Below, one piece after another: positions 23,506 to 56,742 of a DNA stretch of 64,000 nt. Where the stretch lies: NCBI RefSeq assembly GCF_013408985.1, contig NZ_JACBZT010000001.1, positions 2,046,001 to 2,110,000 of the forward strand, given 5' to 3'. The position numbers and the translations under genes were made by a program. The notes under the pieces were generated by a model. That model was not told the origin of the DNA. It saw only the letters and a program-made list of their open reading frames with translations, and made no database searches. The DNA comes from Petropleomorpha daqingensis. Its GTDB lineage: Bacteria; Actinomycetota; Actinomycetes; Mycobacteriales; Geodermatophilaceae. The stretch's first letter is position 1, and every line of letters starts with the position of its first letter.

Positions 23506-24465
23506 GTGGATGCCGCTGTTCCGCACGTGCTGCTGGGCACCTGGCCGACCCCGCTCGAACCCGCGCCCCGGCTCGCCCGCGCGCTCGGCCTCGCCGATGA
23601 GGACCTGTGGCTCAAGCGCGACGACCTGGTCGGCCTGGCCGGCGGCGGTAACAAGGTCCGCAAGCTCGAGTTCACCGTCGGTGCCGCGCTGGACGACGGC
23701 GCGGACGTGCTGGTCACCACCGGGGCGGCGCAGAGCAACCACGCCCGGCTGACCGCAGCGGCCGGCGCCCGGGTCGGGCTCGACGTCGTCCTGGTGCTGG
23801 CCGGTTCCGCCGGTGCCGCGTCGTCGGGGAACCTGGCGCTGGACGGCCTGCTCGGCGCCCGGGTGGTGTGGGCCGGCGACGCCGACCTCGAGGCCACCGC
23901 GCTGTCGGTGGCCGACGACCTCCGCGCGCAGGGGCGCACCCCCGCCGTGATCCCGTTCGGCGGGTCCAGCGCGGTGGGCGCCCGGGGCTACGCGCGGTGC
24001 GCCGCCGAGCTGCTCGAGCAGGCGCCGGACCTGGTGCGGGTGGTGACCGCGGTGGGATCGGGCGGCACGATGGCCGGGCTGGTCGCCGTCCTGGGGCCCG
24101 CGCGGGTGCTGGGCGTGGACTGCGGGGCGGTGACCGACCCGGCCGCGGAGGTGGCCCGGCTGCTCACCGGGCTGACCGGGACGCCGTACGACCCGGCGGT
24201 GCTGCGGATCCGCCGCGACCAGGTCGGCGAGGGCTACGGCGCGCTCACCGAGCCGGTGCTCGACGCGCTGAGCACCGCTGCCCGCGCCGAGGGCGTCGTC
24301 CTCGACCCGGTCTACACCGGGCGGGCGCTGGCCGGGCTGACCGCCGCGGTCGCCGACGGCGACGTCGTCCCGGGGGAGCGGACCGTGCTGCTGCACTCGG
24401 GCGGGCTGCCCGGGCTGTTCGGGCACGCCGCTGCCGTGGCGCGGGCGGAGTCGCTGCTGGAGTGA
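23506..24465 (+). CDS. D-cysteine desulfhydrase / ACC deaminase-family PLP enzyme
   Basis: A 319-residue fold-type II PLP enzyme. The PLP lysine is in GGGNKVRKLEF (near residue 50), TTGAAQSNHARLTAAAGARVG is the conserved substrate and phosphate region, and VGSGGTMAGL forms the PLP phosphate loop. Enzymes of this family cleave D-cysteine to pyruvate, H2S and ammonia or deaminate 1-aminocyclopropane-1-carboxylate; the sequence alone does not settle which. GTG 23506 is the start. It is divergent from the quinone oxidoreductase, with a 24-bp gap that must hold both promoters or a leaderless start. Confidence 0.86.
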   Translation: MDAAVPHVLLGTWPTPLEPAPRLARALGLADEDLWLKRDDLVGLAGGGNKVRKLEFTVGAALDDGADVLVTTGAAQSNHARLTAAAGARVGLDVVLVLAGSAGAASSGNLALDGLLGARVVWAGDADLEATALSVADDLRAQGRTPAVIPFGGSSAVGARGYARCAAELLEQAPDLVRVVTAVGSGGTMAGLVAVLGPARVLGVDCGAVTDPAAEVARLLTGLTGTPYDPAVLRIRRDQVGEGYGALTEPVLDALSTAARAEGVVLDPVYTGRALAGLTAAVADGDVVPGERTVLLHSGGLPGLFGHAAAVARAESLLE

Positions 24466-24506
24466 CCGGCAAGTCGGTCGCAAGTGGGTGGCCCGAACCT
24501 TCGGTC

Positions 24507-25211
24507 ATGACCGCTCAGACCCCCGCCCTGCCGTTCCCCGTCACCCCGCGCCGACCCGGCGACCCGGAGGCCGACCTGACCGGGTTCACCCTCATCCACC
24601 GCGCGCTGCGCGCCGGCACCCGCGACCTCGCCGTCGCGGCGACCGCGATCGCCGCCGGTGCCTCGTGCCGTGCGTCGCGGCGGGACGCCTACGTCGCCTT
24701 CGCCACCGAGGTGCTGCACGAGATCCACCTGCACCACACCCGCGAGGACGACGTCCTCTGGCCGGTCATCGCGGCCTCCGCCGGCGCCGTGGTCGACCTC
24801 GAGCCGCTCACCGACGACCACACCGAGCTGCACGCGGTCCTCGCCCGCGCCGAGGAGGCCCTGACGGCGTTCGCCGGCGCGACCGACGTCCGCGCCGCGG
24901 CCGCCCCGCTGGGCGCCGTCCTCACCGAGATGGCCGACCTGCTCGACGAGCACATCGTCGAGGAGGAGGCGGAGGTGTTCCCGGTGATCCGCGCGCACGT
25001 CTCGGCGAAGGACTTCGCGGCCTGCGAGAAGCGGTTCCAGAAGGGCTCGGGCCCCAAGCACATGATGTTCGTGCTGCCCTGGATCATCGCGCAGTGCTCG
25101 CCGGCGGAGCGGGCCGAGGTGCTGGCGATCGCGCCGGCGCCGCTCAAGGTCCTGCTCAGGCTCGGCGAGGGCCGCTGGCAGCGCCGCCGCGCCCTCGTCG
25201 TCGGCGCGTAG
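24507..25211 (+). CDS. Hemerythrin-domain protein
   Basis: A 234-residue protein with a hemerythrin HHE four-helix bundle. Candidate di-iron ligands are the His in FTLIHRALRAG, the HxxHH...E of IHLHHTREDDVLWPV, the His pair of DDHTELHAV, and LLDEHIVEEEAEVFPVI. A C-terminal part (KGSGPKHMMFVLPWIIAQC…) is shared with the paralogue at 29.3 kb. It probably senses or scavenges oxygen, nitric oxide or iron. ATG 24507 is the start. A large inverted repeat immediately follows the stop. Confidence 0.86.
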   Translation: MTAQTPALPFPVTPRRPGDPEADLTGFTLIHRALRAGTRDLAVAATAIAAGASCRASRRDAYVAFATEVLHEIHLHHTREDDVLWPVIAASAGAVVDLEPLTDDHTELHAVLARAEEALTAFAGATDVRAAAAPLGAVLTEMADLLDEHIVEEEAEVFPVIRAHVSAKDFAACEKRFQKGSGPKHMMFVLPWIIAQCSPAERAEVLAIAPAPLKVLLRLGEGRWQRRRALVVGA

Positions 25212-25259
25212 CGCGCTTTGTCGCGATAAAGCACCCGCGCTTTATCGCGACAAAGCGCG
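25212..25259. repeat. Perfect 21-bp inverted repeat at convergent gene ends
   Basis: Two perfect 21-bp arms (25212-25232 and 25239-25259) around an ACCCGC loop. The first arm starts right after the hemerythrin stop; the second overlaps the last codons and TAA of the convergent AfsR-like gene. Each arm contains its own near-palindrome, TTTGTCGCGATAAA. It is relatively AT-rich for this genome. A bidirectional terminator is the simplest reading. Confidence 0.7.
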
Positions 25260-28200
25260 GGCGGCGGCGATCCAGTCGGGGTTGCCGGTCCGCTCGGCGA
25301 CCTCGACCGCCTTCTTCCGGTGCGCCTCCGCGGCTGCGACGTCGCCGCGGTAGGCGGCCAGCCGGGCGAGCAGGGTCGCGGTCGGGCCGAGGGCGATGGT
25401 CGCCGTCCACGCCCCGCAGACGGCGTCCTCGTGCGCCAGCAGCCCGGCGTAGGCCTCGTCGACCCGGTCGTCGTCCTCCAGGCCCAGGCCGAGCACCGCC
25501 CGGAGGCCGAGCAGGATCGGCGTGAAGTAGTCCCGTCCGACCGACGGCCGGATCTCGGCGAACCGGCGGGCCTCCTCGGTGCGGCCGTTGACCATCAGCG
25601 CCACCGCGAGCAGCTCGGCGAGCTCGACGGGGGCGACGTCGAGCAGGTCCTCCGACTGCGCGATGAGGTCGTCGTAGCGGCCGGCGGTCAGCCGCAGGCA
25701 GAACACCGACACCCACCACAGCGCCTGCGCCTGCCGCGCCCAGAACCCGGTGGAGCCCACGCCGGCCACGGCCGCGCCGTACGCCGCCTCCGCGGTGGCG
25801 TAGTCGCCGCCGATGGTGGCGCGCAGGCCGCGGTACCAGGTGGCGATCGCGTGCAGCAGCGGCAGCCCGTAGACCAGGGCCAGCCGCTCGGCCTCGGTGG
25901 CGTGCTCGTCGGCCGCTGCCAGGTCGAGGACGCCGCAGCTGTGCTGCACGAGCACCAGCCGCGCGGTGGCCTCGAACAGGCCCAGCTGCTCGCGCTGCGC
26001 CAGCGCCAGCAGCTCCCGGCCCAGCTCGCCGCGCTCGGCCAGCCCGCCGTGCCGGTAGGTGTTGATGTAGCGGGCGTTGAGGGCCGAGGCCAGCACGAGC
26101 GGGTCGCCGGTGCTGCGCGCCAGCGCCACCGCTTCGAGGCTGGCCTCGTAGCCGCGCGGGTCGGGCGCGCCGGCCAGCTCCACCGCGAGCACGCCGAGCA
26201 GCCGCGAGCGCAGGTCCGGGCGGTCGGGCAGGGCCGCCACGGTGCGCTCCAGCGCCGTCACGAGAGCGGCCTCGGCCGGTGTCTGCCGCGGCGCCCACAG
26301 CGTCGGGACGTCGCAGGAGAGCAGCACCTCGGCGGTGACCAGTGGATCGCCCAGCGCCGTCGCCGCCGGCAACGCGCCGTCGCGCAGCTCGCGGCCCGCG
26401 GGCATGTCCCCGGCGAGCGTCGCCGCGCGCGCGGCCCGGGCGACCAGCCGAAGCCGGCCCGCCTCGTCGGCCGGGGCCGCCAGCGCGGACGCCGCCTCCG
26501 CCCGCCGCCACCAGTGCAGCGCGTCGCGGTAGGAGAACCGCCGCTCGGCCAGCTCCGCGGCGGCGGCCGCCCAGCGGGCGGTGTCGGCGGCGTGCGACCG
26601 GCCGGCCGCCTCCGAGTGGTGCGCCAGCGCCGTCACGTCGTGCGGGCGCAGCCGCTGCAGCGCCGCGGTGACCCGGCCGTGCAGCCGCCCCGCGCGCAGC
26701 CGGGAGAGGTCCTCGTAGAGGGTGTCGCGCACCAAGGAGTGCACGAACCGCAGCCGCCCGGGGCCCGGCTCGACCAGCAGGCCGCTGACCAGCGCCGACT
26801 CCAGGGCGTCGACCAGCTCCTCGTCGTCGTCGCCCTGGGCCGCGTCCAGCAGGACGTCGACGTCGACGTCCCGGCCCACGACGGCGGCCAGCCGCAGCAG
26901 GCTGCCGGTCTGCGCGGGCAGCGCGGCCAGCCGGGAGTGGACGACGTCGCGCACCCCGCCGGGCACCGCCCCGACGTCGGCGCCCGTGGAGACCAGCCGG
27001 GCCAGCTCGCGGACCAGGAACGGGTTGCCGGCCGTGCGCTCGGCGATCGCGGTCCGGACGGCGTCGTCGACCGGGGTGGCCGACACGTCGTCGACCAGCC
27101 GGCGGACCGCGTCGTCGTCCAGCCCGGCCAGCGCCAGCCGCACCGGCGAGCGGCGGGCGAGCGCGGCGCGCACCGCGTCGAGCTCGGGCACCGGATCGGG
27201 GCGCGCCGCGGCCACGACCAGCACGGGCGTGGCCTGCAGCGCCTCGACGACGTCGAGCAGCAGCGAGGCGGTCTCCTGGTCGGCGCGGTGCAGGTCGTCC
27301 AGGACGAGCAGCAGCGGGCCGGGCACGCTCGCCAGCCACGCCGCGACGGCGCGGTGCAGCCGGAACCGGGAGGCGACCGCGTCGCCGGCCTCCTCCTCGG
27401 GCGCGTCCTCGAGCAGCGGCGCCAGCCGGGCCGGGTCCGCCGGCGGGTGCACGCGCGCCAGCCGGCCGAGGGCCTCCGTCCACGGCCAGCCGCTGGGCGC
27501 GCCCTCGGTCTCGGGGCAGCGGGCCACGCACGTCGTCCAGCCGGTCGCGGCCAGCTCGGCGGTCAGCTGCTCGACCAGCGCCGACTTGCCGCTGCCCGCC
27601 TCGCCGGTGACGACGGCGACCGCCAGCCTCCCGCCCGCGGCGTCGGCGGCCGCGCCGCGCAGGGCGGCCAGCTCGGCGTCCCGCCCGAAGAGAGGGGGCG
27701 GGGGAGGTTCGTCGACGACGCTCGTGCTCTGCCCCGTCGGAGTGGGCAGAGCACGAGCACGCTCGGGAGCCCGTGCCGGGTGCAGCAGGTGCGGTGCCTG
27801 GGCCAGGACGTCGTCCTCCAGCTGCCGCAGCGCCGGGCCGGGGTCGACACCGAGCTCGTCGGCCAGCCGGCCGCGGACCTCCCGCAGCGCGGCGAGCGCG
27901 TCGGCCTGCCGGCCGGCCCGGTACAGGCCGAGCGCGAGCAGCCGCCAGCCCTCCTCCCGCAGCGGGTGCTCGGCGACGTGCGCGCGCAGCCGGGCCAGCG
28001 GGTCCGGGCCGCCGGGCACCGCGAGCGCGGCGGCGGCCCAGCGCTCGACCGCGGTCAGCCGCAGCTCGTCGAGCCGGGCGGCCTCGGGGGCGGCCCAGGG
28101 CTCGTCGGCGTACTCGGCGTAGGCCGGCCCGCGCCAGAGCTCGAGCGCCGCGGCGAAGCGGTCCCGCGCCGCGGCCGGGTCGTCGTCGAAGAGCCGGTCG

Positions 28201-28547
28201 CCCTCGGCCAGCAGCCGGGCGGCGCGGGCGGCGTCGACCGCGTCGTCGTCCGGGCGGAGGGCGTAGCCCGGTGGCACGGTGAGCAGCAGCCGGGCCGGCG
28301 TGCGCGGCGGGCGGTCGGGCTCCAGCGCGCGCCGCAGGTGGCTGATGTGCGCCTGTAGCGCGGCCTGGGCGCGCGGCGGGGTCTCGGCGTGCCAGAGGTC
28401 GGCGACCAGCAGGTCGGCCGGGACGACGGCGCCGCGGGAGGTGAGCAGCCGGGCGATCACCGATCGCTGCCGGTGCCCGCCGAGCTCGACCGGTGCCCCG
28501 TCGCGGGCGGCCCACACGCCGCCCAGCACCCCGAACTCGACCGTCAT
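25242..28547 (-). CDS. AfsR/SARP-like transcriptional regulator with BTAD, AAA and TPR-like domains
   Basis: A 1101-residue regulator. Residues 1-95 form an OmpR-type winged helix (VEFGVLGGVWAARDG..., HISHLRRALEPDRPPRTPARLLLTVPPGYAL). A BTAD helical domain follows to about 250, then an AAA ATPase with Walker A GEAGSGKSALVEQL near residue 315 and Walker B LLLVLDDLHRAD, then about 550 residues of TPR-like helices. Such proteins control secondary metabolism or stress genes, gated by ATP and ligand. ATG 28547 is the start. Its last codons form one arm of a 48-bp inverted repeat. A longer upstream open frame is non-coding extension. Confidence 0.88.
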   Translation of the reverse strand: MTVEFGVLGGVWAARDGAPVELGGHRQRSVIARLLTSRGAVVPADLLVADLWHAETPPRAQAALQAHISHLRRALEPDRPPRTPARLLLTVPPGYALRPDDDAVDAARAARLLAEGDRLFDDDPAAARDRFAAALELWRGPAYAEYADEPWAAPEAARLDELRLTAVERWAAAALAVPGGPDPLARLRAHVAEHPLREEGWRLLALGLYRAGRQADALAALREVRGRLADELGVDPGPALRQLEDDVLAQAPHLLHPARAPERARALPTPTGQSTSVVDEPPPPPLFGRDAELAALRGAAADAAGGRLAVAVVTGEAGSGKSALVEQLTAELAATGWTTCVARCPETEGAPSGWPWTEALGRLARVHPPADPARLAPLLEDAPEEEAGDAVASRFRLHRAVAAWLASVPGPLLLVLDDLHRADQETASLLLDVVEALQATPVLVVAAARPDPVPELDAVRAALARRSPVRLALAGLDDDAVRRLVDDVSATPVDDAVRTAIAERTAGNPFLVRELARLVSTGADVGAVPGGVRDVVHSRLAALPAQTGSLLRLAAVVGRDVDVDVLLDAAQGDDDEELVDALESALVSGLLVEPGPGRLRFVHSLVRDTLYEDLSRLRAGRLHGRVTAALQRLRPHDVTALAHHSEAAGRSHAADTARWAAAAAELAERRFSYRDALHWWRRAEAASALAAPADEAGRLRLVARAARAATLAGDMPAGRELRDGALPAATALGDPLVTAEVLLSCDVPTLWAPRQTPAEAALVTALERTVAALPDRPDLRSRLLGVLAVELAGAPDPRGYEASLEAVALARSTGDPLVLASALNARYINTYRHGGLAERGELGRELLALAQREQLGLFEATARLVLVQHSCGVLDLAAADEHATEAERLALVYGLPLLHAIATWYRGLRATIGGDYATAEAAYGAAVAGVGSTGFWARQAQALWWVSVFCLRLTAGRYDDLIAQSEDLLDVAPVELAELLAVALMVNGRTEEARRFAEIRPSVGRDYFTPILLGLRAVLGLGLEDDDRVDEAYAGLLAHEDAVCGAWTATIALGPTATLLARLAAYRGDVAAAEAHRKKAVEVAERTGNPDWIAAARALSR

Positions 28548-28694
28548 AGCGGGCGGCAGCCTAGCGGTCGCGACCCTCTGTGAAAGCCGATGACCACCTC
28601 GGCACGGCACGCAGCGGCCCGTCGGCACCCGCTCGCCGTCCCGCCCCTTCCCGGTTCCGGCGGTGCCACCCTCGAACGGCCTCTGGAGGTGATC

Positions 28695-29252
28695 ATGACT
28701 CCTGGCCGTTGGGGAGCGGGACGCGTCGTGGCGCTCGTCCTCGGGGTGCTCCTGCTGGTCCCCGGTCTCGCGCTGCTGGTCGGCGGGGGTGCGCTGCTCT
28801 GGGCGGACAGCACCCACCGGACCTCGGTCGCCCACCTGACCTCGGATGCCACCGATCCCGGCACCGACCTCGTCACCGGCATCGCCGCCGCGTCCGGCAT
28901 CGCCGGGTACCTCGACGGCGTCCAGTGCACGGTGGTCGACGACCTGGGCAGCGGCGCGTCGCCCGGGACCGAGGCGGCCGGTGGGGGGCGGTCCGGCGAC
29001 CAGACGTTCTGGACGCCGCGGGCCGGCGGCTGGGGTACCCAGCAGCTGACCTGGCGGGCCGCGAGCGGGAACTGGGCGCTCGGGGCCATGGACGCCGGTG
29101 GCAGCCCCGGCATCAGGGTGACCAGCACGGCCGGCGCGACCGCGCCGTCGCTGGCCGGGCTGGGCTGGGGCCTGCTGGTCGTCGGCGGGCTGGTGAGCCT
29201 CGTCGGCGTCCTGCTGATCGTCCTGGCCGCCCGGCGGAAAGCCGAGCACTAG
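28695..29252 (+). CDS. Small membrane protein of unknown function
   Basis: A 185-residue protein with TM1 near residues 8-30 (VVALVLGVLLLVPGLALLVGGGALL), a Gly/Thr-rich extracytoplasmic domain of about 115 residues (…DGVQCTVVDDLGSG…, …GGWGTQQLTWRA…), and TM2 near the C-terminus (GWGLLVVGGLVSLVGVLLIVL) ending in a basic RRKAEH tail. GGAGG lies 5 nt before ATG 28695, which decides against an upstream in-frame ATG. It is divergent from the AfsR-like gene and followed by a hemerythrin gene 45 bp on. Confidence 0.75.
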   Translation: MTPGRWGAGRVVALVLGVLLLVPGLALLVGGGALLWADSTHRTSVAHLTSDATDPGTDLVTGIAAASGIAGYLDGVQCTVVDDLGSGASPGTEAAGGGRSGDQTFWTPRAGGWGTQQLTWRAASGNWALGAMDAGGSPGIRVTSTAGATAPSLAGLGWGLLVVGGLVSLVGVLLIVLAARRKAEH

Positions 29253-29297
29253 CCGCTCGCAAGCGCGCCACCAGCGGTTCCGGTCACCGTCTGCGTC

Positions 29298-29981
29298 ATG
29301 ACGACGACCGTTCCGAGCCCCGTCCACGCCCCGGCGACCACCGAGCCCGACCTCTCCGGGTTCACCCTGATGCACCGCGCGCTGCGCTCGGGCACCCGGA
29401 TGCTCGCCGAGGCCGTCGACGGCATCGCCCGGGACGACGCCTGCGACCGGTCCCGGCAGCGCGGCATCGTCGAGTTCGCGTGCGCCGTGCTCACCGAGGT
29501 CCGGGCGCACCTGGAGCGCGAGGACGCCGCCCTCTACCGGCTCGTCGTGGTGTCGGCCGACGAGTGGGCCGACCTCGCACCGCTGTCGGCCGACCACGTC
29601 GAGCTGGAGCGGCTGCTGCAGCTGGCCTGGGCGGCGCTGCCCGTGTTCGCCCGCTGCGCGAGCACCGGCGCACCGCTGCTGGCCCCGGTCCTGACCGAGC
29701 TGGCCGCACGGCTGGAGGCGCACCTCGCCGCGGAGGAGGCGATCGTGTTCGCGCGGATCCGCGCGCACGTCACCGGCGCCGAGCTGGAGCGCTGCCGGAC
29801 GCGGCTGCGGGCGGGGACCTCGACGTCGCGGCTGCTGTTCCTGGCGCCGTGGCTGGCCGACCAGTGCCACCCCGCGGAGCTGCGGCACGTGCTCGCCGCG
29901 GCCGACGCGCGCAGCCGGCTGCTGCTCTCGCTGGGCCAGAAGCGCTACGCCGCCCGCCGCGACGCCGTCCTCGGGGCTTGA
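29298..29981 (+). CDS. Hemerythrin-domain protein (paralogue)
   Basis: A 227-residue hemerythrin HHE protein clearly related to the one at 24.5 kb: DLSGFTLMHRALRSGTRMLAEAV against DLTGFTLIHRALRAGTRDLAVAA, and a matching C-terminal half (LFLAPWLADQCHPAEL). The visible ligands are fewer: one helix reads VRAHLEREDAALY, where the paralogue has HLHHTREDDVLW, and AHLAAEEAIVFARI replaces EHIVEEEAEVF. It may bind iron differently. ATG 29298 is the start. An imperfect 18-bp hairpin follows the stop. Confidence 0.85.
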   Translation: MTTTVPSPVHAPATTEPDLSGFTLMHRALRSGTRMLAEAVDGIARDDACDRSRQRGIVEFACAVLTEVRAHLEREDAALYRLVVVSADEWADLAPLSADHVELERLLQLAWAALPVFARCASTGAPLLAPVLTELAARLEAHLAAEEAIVFARIRAHVTGAELERCRTRLRAGTSTSRLLFLAPWLADQCHPAELRHVLAAADARSRLLLSLGQKRYAARRDAVLGA

Positions 29982-55421: not shown

Positions 55422-56056
55422 CGCCGTCCCTCCTCCCCGGGCACGAGCAGCCTGCCCAGCACGTCGGCCACCCACCGCTCGTACTTCGCCACCGACCACC
55501 CCGCGATCTCGGTGAGCAGGTGGAAGACGTCGACGCCCGACATCGCCCAGATCTCGTCGCGCAGGTCCTCGCCCACGTCCCGGCCGGTGACGAGCTCGAC
55601 GCCCTGCCGGACGTTGACCCGGCGCCGGTTCTCGGCCTGGAGGAGCTTCGCGGCGAGCTCCGGCTCGCTGCCCGCGGCCTCGGCGAGCGCCCGGCGCAGC
55701 CCGGAGATCCGCCGGTTGATGTCGGTCATGAGGTGCGCGGCCGCGGTGATCCGGTCGGCGAGCTCCCCGGCCGACAGCCGGGCGAACTCCGGACGCTGCG
55801 CCAGGGGCACCGGGTCGGCGTCGCCGACGACGCCGACGTCGATGGCCGCCATCAGCAGTTCGGTCTTCGACCGGAAGTTGGCGTACACCGTCTCCACCGC
55901 GACGCCGGCCTCGCGCGCGACGTCGCGCATCCCGGTGGCCGACCAGCCGCGCGTGCCGAAGAGCGCGGTGGCGGCGGCCAGCACGCCGGCCCGGGTCTCC
56001 GCGGCCTGCTGCTGCCGGCGGGGGGATCGGTAGGCCCGACGACCGGGAGCGGTCAA
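55418..56056 (-). CDS. TetR-family regulator
   Basis: A 212-residue TetR protein with the helix-turn-helix WSATGMRDVAREAGVAVETVYANFRSKTELLMAAI and an all-helical ligand domain (AEAAGSEPELAAKLLQAENRRRVNVRQG). TTG 56056 overlaps the hemerythrin stop (TTGA) and is the only sensible start, so translation depends on the upstream gene. It sits inside an operon rather than divergent from one, suggesting control of its own transcript. Confidence 0.86.
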   Translation of the reverse strand: MTAPGRRAYRSPRRQQQAAETRAGVLAAATALFGTRGWSATGMRDVAREAGVAVETVYANFRSKTELLMAAIDVGVVGDADPVPLAQRPEFARLSAGELADRITAAAHLMTDINRRISGLRRALAEAAGSEPELAAKLLQAENRRRVNVRQGVELVTGRDVGEDLRDEIWAMSGVDVFHLLTEIAGWSVAKYERWVADVLGRLLVPGEEGRR

Positions 56057-56742
56057 CGCACCGCCGTCCGCGGCTGCGGGACGACCGGCGACCAGCAGGC
56101 GGCCGAGTGCCGCCGGTAGCTGCGGGCGAAGCCGTGCAGCAGCACGAACCGCGGCACCGCCGGCACCGTGTGGACGACGACGTCGTAGCCCTCGGGGTCG
56201 ATGCCGTCGAGCAGCCAGTGACCCTCGAACCCCAGCTCCCGCATCGACTTGGGCTTGACGTTGTACTCCTGCTCGACGGCGTCCCACTCCCGGTCGGTGA
56301 TGCTCGCCGCGACCACCGGCATCGCCTCGGCCACCTCCCGGTCCAGGTGCGGGACGAGCACCTCGACCAGCCGGTCCAGCGCGGCCAGGAGGGCGGCCCG
56401 CGGCCCGTCGGTCGTGGTCGTCGCGTACTCGCGCGCGGCCGCGGTCACCGCCTCCGCCGCGGGGGCGATCCGGGCGTGGTCGGCCTCCAGCGAGTCGAGC
56501 AGGGGTCCGGCCGCCGGGTTGCGGTCGCGCACGAGCGGCCAGAGGCCGTCGTCCTCGCCGGTGTGGTGGCCGTGCAGGAACTGCATCAGCCACTGCACGT
56601 GCGCGCCCAGCGCCCGGCGCTGACCGCCCTCCGGAGGGGGCGCGGCCCCGAGCACGTCGCGGGCCCGGCGCAGGTCGCGCTGCAGGGCGGCGTGGACGAT
56701 TCCCATGATCCGGGTGTCGGCCGGAGTGTCCTGAGTCGTCAT
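56053..56742 (-). CDS. Hemerythrin-domain protein (third copy)
   Basis: A 229-residue HHE protein only distantly related to those at 24.5 and 29.3 kb. The ligands are clearer: HAALQRDLRRARD, FLHGHHTGEDDGLWPLV, EADHARIAPAA and LVPHLDREVAEAMPVV, matching H-HxxxE-H-HxxxxE/D. The C-terminal 70 residues form an extra helical segment (HTVPAVPRFVLLHGFARSYRRH). ATG 56742 has GGAGG 8 nt upstream; GTG 56751 is less likely. It starts the three-gene unit, 68 bp after helR. Confidence 0.88.
   Translation of the reverse strand: MTTQDTPADTRIMGIVHAALQRDLRRARDVLGAAPPPEGGQRRALGAHVQWLMQFLHGHHTGEDDGLWPLVRDRNPAAGPLLDSLEADHARIAPAAEAVTAAAREYATTTTDGPRAALLAALDRLVEVLVPHLDREVAEAMPVVAASITDREWDAVEQEYNVKPKSMRELGFEGHWLLDGIDPEGYDVVVHTVPAVPRFVLLHGFARSYRRHSAACWSPVVPQPRTAVR

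Follow-up and report, generated by a model that had tools for sequence, protein, structure and literature searches.

The window analysed in this work, a 64,000-nucleotide stretch of the genome of Petropleomorpha daqingensis (Geodermatophilaceae; contig NZ_JACBZT010000001.1, positions 2,046,001 to 2,110,000), holds two hemerythrin genes, hereafter Hem1 and Hem2, which lie on either side of the genes for a large regulator of the Streptomyces antibiotic regulatory protein (SARP) type and for a small membrane protein (Table 1). This layout had been described in a sequence-only reading of the same DNA as two hemerythrins flanking a 1101-residue ATP-binding regulator and a two-helix membrane protein, and both the coordinates and the families were confirmed here, the start of the membrane-protein gene being corrected. 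Our analysis favors, as the probable explanation of the locus, a stand-alone module in which the adjacent large SARP binds operators in front of Hem1 and Hem2 and activates both genes, the hemerythrins being its effectors.

Table 1. Features of the hemerythrin-SARP region of P. daqingensis (positions in the window).
Feature	Position	Strand	Basis
Predicted SARP operator/promoter of Hem1	24458..24500	+	Best-scoring window position, 23.0 bits
Hem1, HHE hemerythrin, 234 aa, six di-iron ligands complete	24507..25211	+	PF01814 profile, alignment, AlphaFold2
21-bp perfect hairpin between convergent stops	25212..25259		-41.4 kcal/mol, z -4.66
Large SARP (AfsR-type), 1101 aa: OmpR-like DNA-binding, BTAD, STAND NTPase (AAA_16), helical C-terminus, putatively with TPR-like repeats	25242..28547	-	Pfam profiles, predicted structure
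Two-helix membrane protein, 185 aa, start moved from 28590	28695..29252	+	Homologue alignment, Shine-Dalgarno
Predicted SARP operator/promoter of Hem2	29248..29290	+	Second of 127,916 positions, 20.1 bits
Hem2, HHE hemerythrin, 227 aa, ligands complete	29298..29981	+	PF01814 profile, alignment, tree

Hem1 and Hem2 share 102 identities over 231 positions (44%; BLASTP E 2e-53), and both surpassed the curated cut-off of the PF01814 profile (58.8 and 45.9 bits, respectively; cut-off 25.3). It had been supposed that Hem2 lost some of its histidine ligands. An alignment of 62 rows (Hem1, Hem2 and 60 of the 79 relatives of Hem1 found in named genomes) showed the ligand set H31, H76, E80, H105, H149 and E153 (Hem1 numbering) to be invariant in every row, which rules out ligand loss in the Hem2 protein of the window; all six residues are kept, in the pattern H-HxxxE-H-HxxxE, and the histidines of Hem1 that are absent from Hem2 (such as 71, 74, 77 and 109) fall outside the set. 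Both proteins are accordingly best described as HHE-type di-iron proteins whose binding of iron is predicted. Hemerythrins that carry O2 are recognized by five histidines. The fifth one, four residues after the histidine of helix C, was present only in Hem1 (H109) and in the protein of locus L106, two of 25 alignment rows, Hem2 having a glutamate at this position; judged by its residues the family as a whole is not of the five-histidine type, even though Hem1 itself has a histidine there.

The AlphaFold2 model of Hem1, with the four-helix bundle fold of the HHE hemerythrins, was of high confidence (predicted local distance difference test, pLDDT, 95.6), and its comparison with the PDB by VIA-align ranked hemerythrin-like entries at the top: 2p0n (Z 15.6) and 3cax (Z 13.9), which are titled uncharacterized and which we take to be hemerythrins, followed by 3u9j (FBXL5; Z 12.3), whose title names a hemerythrin; unrelated helical bundles, however, reached Z 11.0, exceeding the likewise titled homologue of Rv2633c (6q09; Z 10.9). 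A phmmer search of PDB sequences with Hem1 gave nothing useful (best E 0.26), and Foldseek returned no match to the Hem1 model under 0.001. Three orthologues of Hem2, grouped with it in the tree with support 100/99, have lost E80, H105 and H149 by alignment (L127 4997-5725 +, L128 5149-5871 + and L129 5341-6051 -, in genomes G046, G042 and G047). Their C-terminal part is kept despite the loss of three of the six ligands, and these proteins are possibly metal-free hemerythrins under the same control.

The regulator matched the Pfam profiles Trans_reg_C (29.6 bits; cut-off 26.2), BTAD (120.8; 22.1) and AAA_16 (85.9; 32.6), and its Walker A residues G318, G320 and K321 were invariant among 15 chosen regulators. 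The C-terminal part yielded an all-helical model (pLDDT 93.6), and many of its top Foldseek matches were TPR proteins such as LGN and Rap, with only three matches at E <= 0.001 and TM-scores of about 0.4-0.5. In terms of architecture we regard this protein as a large SARP rather than as AfsR proper; with the AfsR equivalog model NF053617 it scored 147.8 bits, for a cut-off of 1430. The best match among PDB sequences was EmbR (2fez; phmmer E 8.9e-34, residues 3-253), and the AfsR structures 8k60 and 8jke matched residues 3-328 with E values of about 1e-31. According to the accessible text of PMC10936776, AfsR reads bases through T88 and R92; by our own count in the printed alignment these positions correspond to A66 and H70 of the regulator, a replacement that is consistent with the changed repeat (CAAGT) found in front of the hemerythrins. 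The group consensus across this base-contact stretch is HVSHLRR, and the regulator of the window reads HISHLRR.

The association of the two genes was frequent among actinobacteria. Named genomes were scanned with 17 hemerythrins of Geodermatophilaceae, mostly picked as linked ones, the scan itself relying on hemerythrin sequence alone, and AfsR-like genes were called with a hidden Markov model (HMM) of the regulator. An AfsR-like gene was found in the +/-6 kb flank in 73 of the 79 loci obtained, convergent to the hemerythrin in 70, in tandem in two and divergent in one; six loci had none. The gap, measured to the end of the HMM match, was at most 301 bp in 65 of the 70 convergent loci, many of them overlapping, and wider in L168, L169, L186, L196 and L199, the last being a weak match. 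Pairs were found in Geodermatophilaceae, Nakamurella, Mycobacteriaceae, Nocardiaceae, Pseudonocardiaceae, Micromonosporaceae, Streptosporangiaceae and one record named Streptomyces. When gene families occurring in at least three taxon groups were counted, the two most frequent were those of the regulator, in 71 loci, and of the hemerythrin, in 69; a small membrane protein with an LHPLEH motif came next, in 10 of the 79 loci. A search in the other direction, with the C-terminal part of the SARP as query in 394 genomes of the order and with the best 150 matches each for regulator and hemerythrin, found, for 37 of the 150 listed matches, a listed hemerythrin no more than 1.5 kb away from the estimated regulator gene, in all three gene orders (17 convergent, 12 tandem and 8 divergent).

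Hemerythrin and SARP distances were correlated (r = 0.92, 63 loci; none of 1000 permutations was as high), although shared species history by itself gives some correlation. In a FastTree tree of the regulators the hemerythrin-linked SARPs clustered (3 changes, whereas shuffling gave 16.6 on average); since the branches of this tree are long and Geodermatophilaceae are the only source of its unlinked rows, it was used only as support. Together, these data suggest that Hem1 and its SARP are an old, co-inherited pair throughout the Actinomycetes.

Within the Geodermatophilaceae, at least 14 of 112 genomes, that of P. daqingensis included, carried a hemerythrin and a large SARP convergent within 200 bp; 13 of them had Hem1-like copies, two of these genomes (G046 and G047) with two copies in a row, and G029 had a more distant hemerythrin. 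The sequence-only reading had seen in the four genes one module and had set conservation of their order in this family as a test. In our comparison of the family, made among the matches listed with six candidates scored per genome, the four-gene order was seen in none of the other 111 genomes. The membrane-protein family was represented in 49 of the 112 genomes and, among the matches listed, adjoined a hemerythrin only in the window, in G031 and in G037, where the hemerythrin frame is interrupted. At the site equivalent to that of the window, G031 and G037 had the membrane protein and the hemerythrin alone, and G046, G042 and G047 had only the Hem2 orthologue, their hemerythrin-regulator pair residing at a different site, beside an FMN (flavin mononucleotide) dehydrogenase and a luciferase-like gene. 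The fact that the halves recur separately implies that Hem1-regulator and Hem2 are separate units, neighbors here by chance, Hem2 being apparently a paralogue that occupies a site of its own and has the operator in common with Hem1. On this separate recurrence among the matches listed, and on a membrane-protein promoter devoid of operator, a four-gene module is rejected. What stays together in relatives is the Hem1-regulator pair and not the set of four. The idea of a functional module of hemerythrins and regulator is strongly supported in the form of hemerythrin plus large SARP, and the DNA evidence is directed from regulator to hemerythrin. The membrane protein, with no operator and a different linkage, is probably outside the regulon.

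The Geodermatophilaceae hold two versions of the pair. The second lies farther from the first than from the mycobacterial and micromonosporal pairs, both genes behaving alike (hemerythrin distances 0.50 and 0.46 versus 0.58; regulator distances 0.47 and 0.45 versus 0.59), and these parallel distances suggest that the pair travelled or was duplicated as a unit. As a separate observation, in Geodermatophilus (L091, 3808-5067 +; L092-L096) the pair adjoins a gene for an FMN-dependent dehydrogenase (Pfam FMN_dh), an enzyme that, we presume, resembles MftD of the mycofactocin system.

Upstream of the paired hemerythrins we identified two or three NNAAGTS heptamers recurring every 11 bp, followed after 8 bp by a CANNGT -10 box. 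Raw counts of exact heptamer repeats peaked at 11 bp (20 of 80 regions; 0-5 in ten shuffles) but were high at other spacings as well (15 at 24 bp, 12 at the two-turn distance of 22 bp, and 10 at both 12 and 18 bp), and for this reason a de novo expectation-maximization test over periods 8-14 was needed. Started from sampled sites and applied to 53 non-redundant upstream regions, none of them from Geodermatophilaceae, it gave 21.5 bits per sequence at period 11 as compared with 8.7-10.2 at periods 8-10 and 12-14, and with 7.5 at period 11 for 53 control genes. The accessible text of PMC10936776 describes SARP promoters with repeats 11 or 22 bp apart and the 3' repeat 8 bp from the -10 box, which is CACTGT for afsS. 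The geometry in front of the hemerythrins conforms to this AfsR/SARP promoter rule, and binding of a SARP is predicted from it.

In a leave-one-group-out analysis of 78 loci, the best site of the whole locus fell in the 200 bp preceding the hemerythrin in 66 and elsewhere in 12. By taxon, this was the case in 32/32 loci of the mycobacteria/Nocardiaceae type, 11/13 of Micromonosporaceae, 6/7 of Streptosporangiaceae, 6/9 of Pseudonocardiaceae and in the single loci of Nakamurella (1/1) and Streptomyces (1/1). A further 40 regions comprised 20 tandem or divergent loci and 20 picked by hand; two of them, L271 and L301, duplicate loci used in training, and four more (L300, L302, L303 and L304) are 84-88% identical to such loci. 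Here the best site was at the hemerythrin in 33 of 40, or in 31 of 38 without the two repeats, including all 12 tandem loci, one of which is a training locus. The seven that failed were L283, L284, L285, L289, L294, L308 and L309; the last two lack both a neighboring SARP and a site (-11.8 and -13.6).

Both hemerythrins of the window are preceded by such a site. That of Hem1 reads GCAAGTC-4-GCAAGTG (24469-24486) and is separated by 8 bp from a -10-like GAACCT (24495-24500), with a third, degenerate repeat upstream (24458-24464); that of Hem2 reads ACTAGCC-4-GCAAGCG-4-ACCAGCG (29248-29276), with the same 8 bp to a -10-like CACCGT (29285-29290). Only 6 and 7 bases, respectively, lie between the -10 box and the start codon, from which leaderless mRNAs are predicted as likely. 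When all positions of the window were ranked with a model trained without Geodermatophilaceae, these two sites came first, followed by the same sites shifted one repeat (16.9 and 9.9) and by 54251 - (7.2). Searches of the genome, a single contig of 5.38 Mb, gave 12 matches to hemerythrins and 18 to BTAD. Among its 12 hemerythrins, sites were found at Hem1 (25.4), at Hem2 (21.6) and at one that is divergent from another large SARP (13.0), the other nine scoring at most 4.2; the prediction is that Hem1 and Hem2 would be under one control, with no site at those nine. The site is retained by the Hem2 orthologues that are not linked to a SARP, with high scores in G046 (25.5) and G047 (23.4) and a weak one in G042 (13.3), which suggests that the regulator works in trans and that its regulon includes Hem2. 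No operator was detected at the membrane protein (-11.2), the window regulator (-13.4) or a third hemerythrin of the window (-12.5). Autoregulation of the SARPs through the same operator was unsupported, as their own upstream regions scored at most 1.5 (median -11.2, 67 regulators).

The presence of SARP-type operators at both Hem1 and Hem2 gives the proposed control its direction, from the regulator to the hemerythrins. We envisage that the SARP would be held off by its own C-terminal ATPase/TPR parts until a signal releases it; once released, it would bind the 11-bp direct repeats just upstream of the -10 boxes of Hem1 and Hem2 and recruit RNA polymerase to both genes, as AfsR does at afsS. 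The hemerythrins would be the effectors produced upon this release and would presumably serve to deal with O2, peroxide, NO or iron. For AfsR, a held-off state, release by a signal, binding to the repeats and recruitment of RNA polymerase are all described in the accessible text of PMC10936776.

Several observations weigh against this scheme. The leave-one-group-out recovery was weaker in the Geodermatophilaceae themselves (9/15), and the operator of Hem2 is a degenerate one. Over the whole genome, GCAAGTSNNNNGCAAGT gave 4 matches when up to one mismatch was allowed, versus 13 for the reversed control, and a longer pattern was barely enriched (9 versus 5 for the control). In the search that started from the regulator, 113 of the 150 listed regulators had no listed hemerythrin alongside. 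At L307 the site was strong (38.0) and no SARP was found in 10 kb, and six hemerythrins without a flanking SARP (L132, L133, L164, L166, L171 and L206) carry the operator (in-sample scores 26.3-39.1), implying that the site does not require a linked regulator. Finally, the same kind of motif stands before other genes near other large SARPs of this genome (L122 and L124); the motif by itself does not name its regulator, and the assignment of the SARP to Hem1 and Hem2 rests on adjacency.

The tight co-inheritance and the pairing in three gene orders would suit protein partners equally well. It is conceivable, though rather improbable, that the hemerythrin is an accessory sensor which docks on the TPR or ATPase part of the SARP and signals to it the O2, NO or redox state, the SARP both reading and activating it in a feedback loop; of the alternatives considered, this one comes nearest to the sequence-only reading. 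The confident all-helical model of the SARP C-terminal part, with its weak Foldseek matches to TPR proteins including Rap, is in line with this idea, and the accessible text of PMC4919030 states that O2-binding hemerythrin domains are often joined to signaling domains. The operator by itself, however, accounts for the linkage, and hemerythrins without a neighboring SARP retain it. We would give only a small chance to a two-gene signaling unit of Actinomycetes in which the di-iron hemerythrin is both target and sensing subunit, its O2, NO or redox state setting the ATPase/TPR switch of the SARP.

A slightly less probable alternative is that the hemerythrin operator is served by one or more other SARPs while the adjacent one mainly controls other genes. 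The motif near FAD (flavin adenine dinucleotide) oxidase genes at other large SARPs of the genome, and operators before a small membrane-protein gene and MMPL-like transporter genes beside some pairs, would fit it; the pairing in 73 of 79 loci, the correlated divergence and the tree clustering of the hemerythrin-linked SARPs are hard to account for in this way. Very improbable is that the linkage is maintained because the convergent transcripts control one another through collision or antisense pairing, for although the 3' ends are very short-spaced or overlapping in many loci and a strong hairpin separates the stops in the window, this hairpin would keep the transcripts apart, and tandem (12) and divergent (8) orders exist, with the operator in all 12 tandem and in most divergent loci. 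Activation of Hem1 and Hem2 by the adjacent SARP is the reading that we retain.

Regarding the remaining features of the window, the hairpin between Hem1 and the regulator has a core unique within the window, its right arm runs into the end of the regulator gene, and it is a probable two-way terminator. The membrane protein has one hydrophobic stretch at each end, read from its sequence, and no match to Pfam profiles. Many of its relatives begin to align at about residue 37 of the frame that opens at 28590, and GGAGGTGATC, a Shine-Dalgarno sequence, lies directly 5' of the ATG at 28695, which makes the latter the most likely start. The third, different hemerythrin that had been noticed near 56.1 kb is present at 56053-56742 -; it is more distant, forms a separate branch in the tree and lies upstream of genes that the sequence-only reading named TetR and SRPBCC-like. 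Its lack of an operator and its separate branch rule it out as part of the module.

Operators of the same type were also observed at genes other than hemerythrins. The membrane protein with the LHPLEH motif, of about 206 aa and without a Pfam match exceeding the cut-off, is likely a second member of the regulon, for near several pairs a separate SARP operator precedes it (L154 5913 -, L163 908 -, L208 5914 -, L168 5926 -, L179 11225 - and L186 5918 -, the last with no called gene). A gene for an MMPL/RND-like transporter, named from a reading of its sequence, adjoins the SARP or the hemerythrin and has a strong operator in L283 (7010 +), L285 (2074 -) and L307 (2079 + and 4404 +), a hint that the signal could be envelope or drug stress. 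In P. daqingensis, operators lie beside FAD oxidase genes near other large SARPs (L122 8503 +, G000:C1:2016502, score 32.1; L124 9930 +, score 18.1); the L122 oxidase has FAD_binding_4 and a sub-threshold berberine-bridge match, and the L124 gene belongs to the same cluster. At L250 a pattern match with two mismatches stands beside a large SARP, and the FAD oxidase there was recognized by reading only. These oxidase genes possibly represent a second pairing of a SARP with a target. The top operator score among the scanned stretches of this genome (34.2; L119 9289 -, G000:C1:282288) belongs to a leaderless arrangement in front of a membrane-protein-like gene of 74 aa.

SARPs are known to act as switches for antibiotic clusters and, to our knowledge, what large SARPs sense is an open question in the field. 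The pair studied here would represent a SARP regulon with an unusual, widely conserved di-iron target rather than an antibiotic cluster: a SARP kept over several actinobacterial families with one constant partner, a recognizable operator and no conserved biosynthetic cluster. Its single main target gene and simple readout would make the input of a large SARP an experimentally tractable question, and the pair would offer a regulatory handle on the HHE hemerythrins, which are poorly understood in actinobacteria. Should the hemerythrin prove to be a sensing subunit as well as a target, it would supply the physiological input of a large SARP that is not tied to antibiotic clusters. We found no description of a hemerythrin-SARP or hemerythrin-AfsR pair among the papers listed from the open-access literature, subscription papers not being covered; the accessible part of PMC5069765 mentions hemerythrin and AfsR, unrelated to each other.

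Among known systems, EmbR of Mycobacterium tuberculosis, which has a C-terminal FHA domain and is under phospho-control, resembles the window regulator in its SARP part only. Hem1 shares its fold with YtfE/RIC, the Rv2633c homologue and FBXL5, and its ligand pattern with YtfE (H84, H129, E133, H160, H204 and E208 in the accessible text of PMC9268430); with the RIC/YtfE equivalog TIGR03652, however, Hem1 and Hem2 scored 25.4 and 21.5 bits, far under the cut-off of 204.7. Other HHE hemerythrins are MSMEG_3312, MSMEG_2415 and MSMEG_6212 of M. smegmatis, work on which concerns susceptibility to H2O2 and erythromycin; the available portion of PMC4660385 mentions no SARP. The operator of PimR, a regulator of the SARP-LAL type, is composed of three CGGCAAG heptamers with 4-bp spacers (PMC5930380, accessible text), and the two or three heptamers found here have a GCAAG-like core; PimR differs in acting on pimM inside an antibiotic cluster, whereas the hemerythrin-SARP pair has no conserved gene set around it. 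The closest parallel is AfsR of Streptomyces coelicolor, which has the same order of domains as the window SARP (OmpR-type DNA-binding, BTAD, STAND ATPase and an end that in the window SARP is helical and probably made of repeats) and whose afsS promoter follows the same rule, with repeats of 11 bp placed 8 bp ahead of a CANNGT -10 box (PMC10936776, accessible text); the two regulators differ in their targets, which is afsS for AfsR and, as predicted here, the hemerythrin for the SARP of P. daqingensis.

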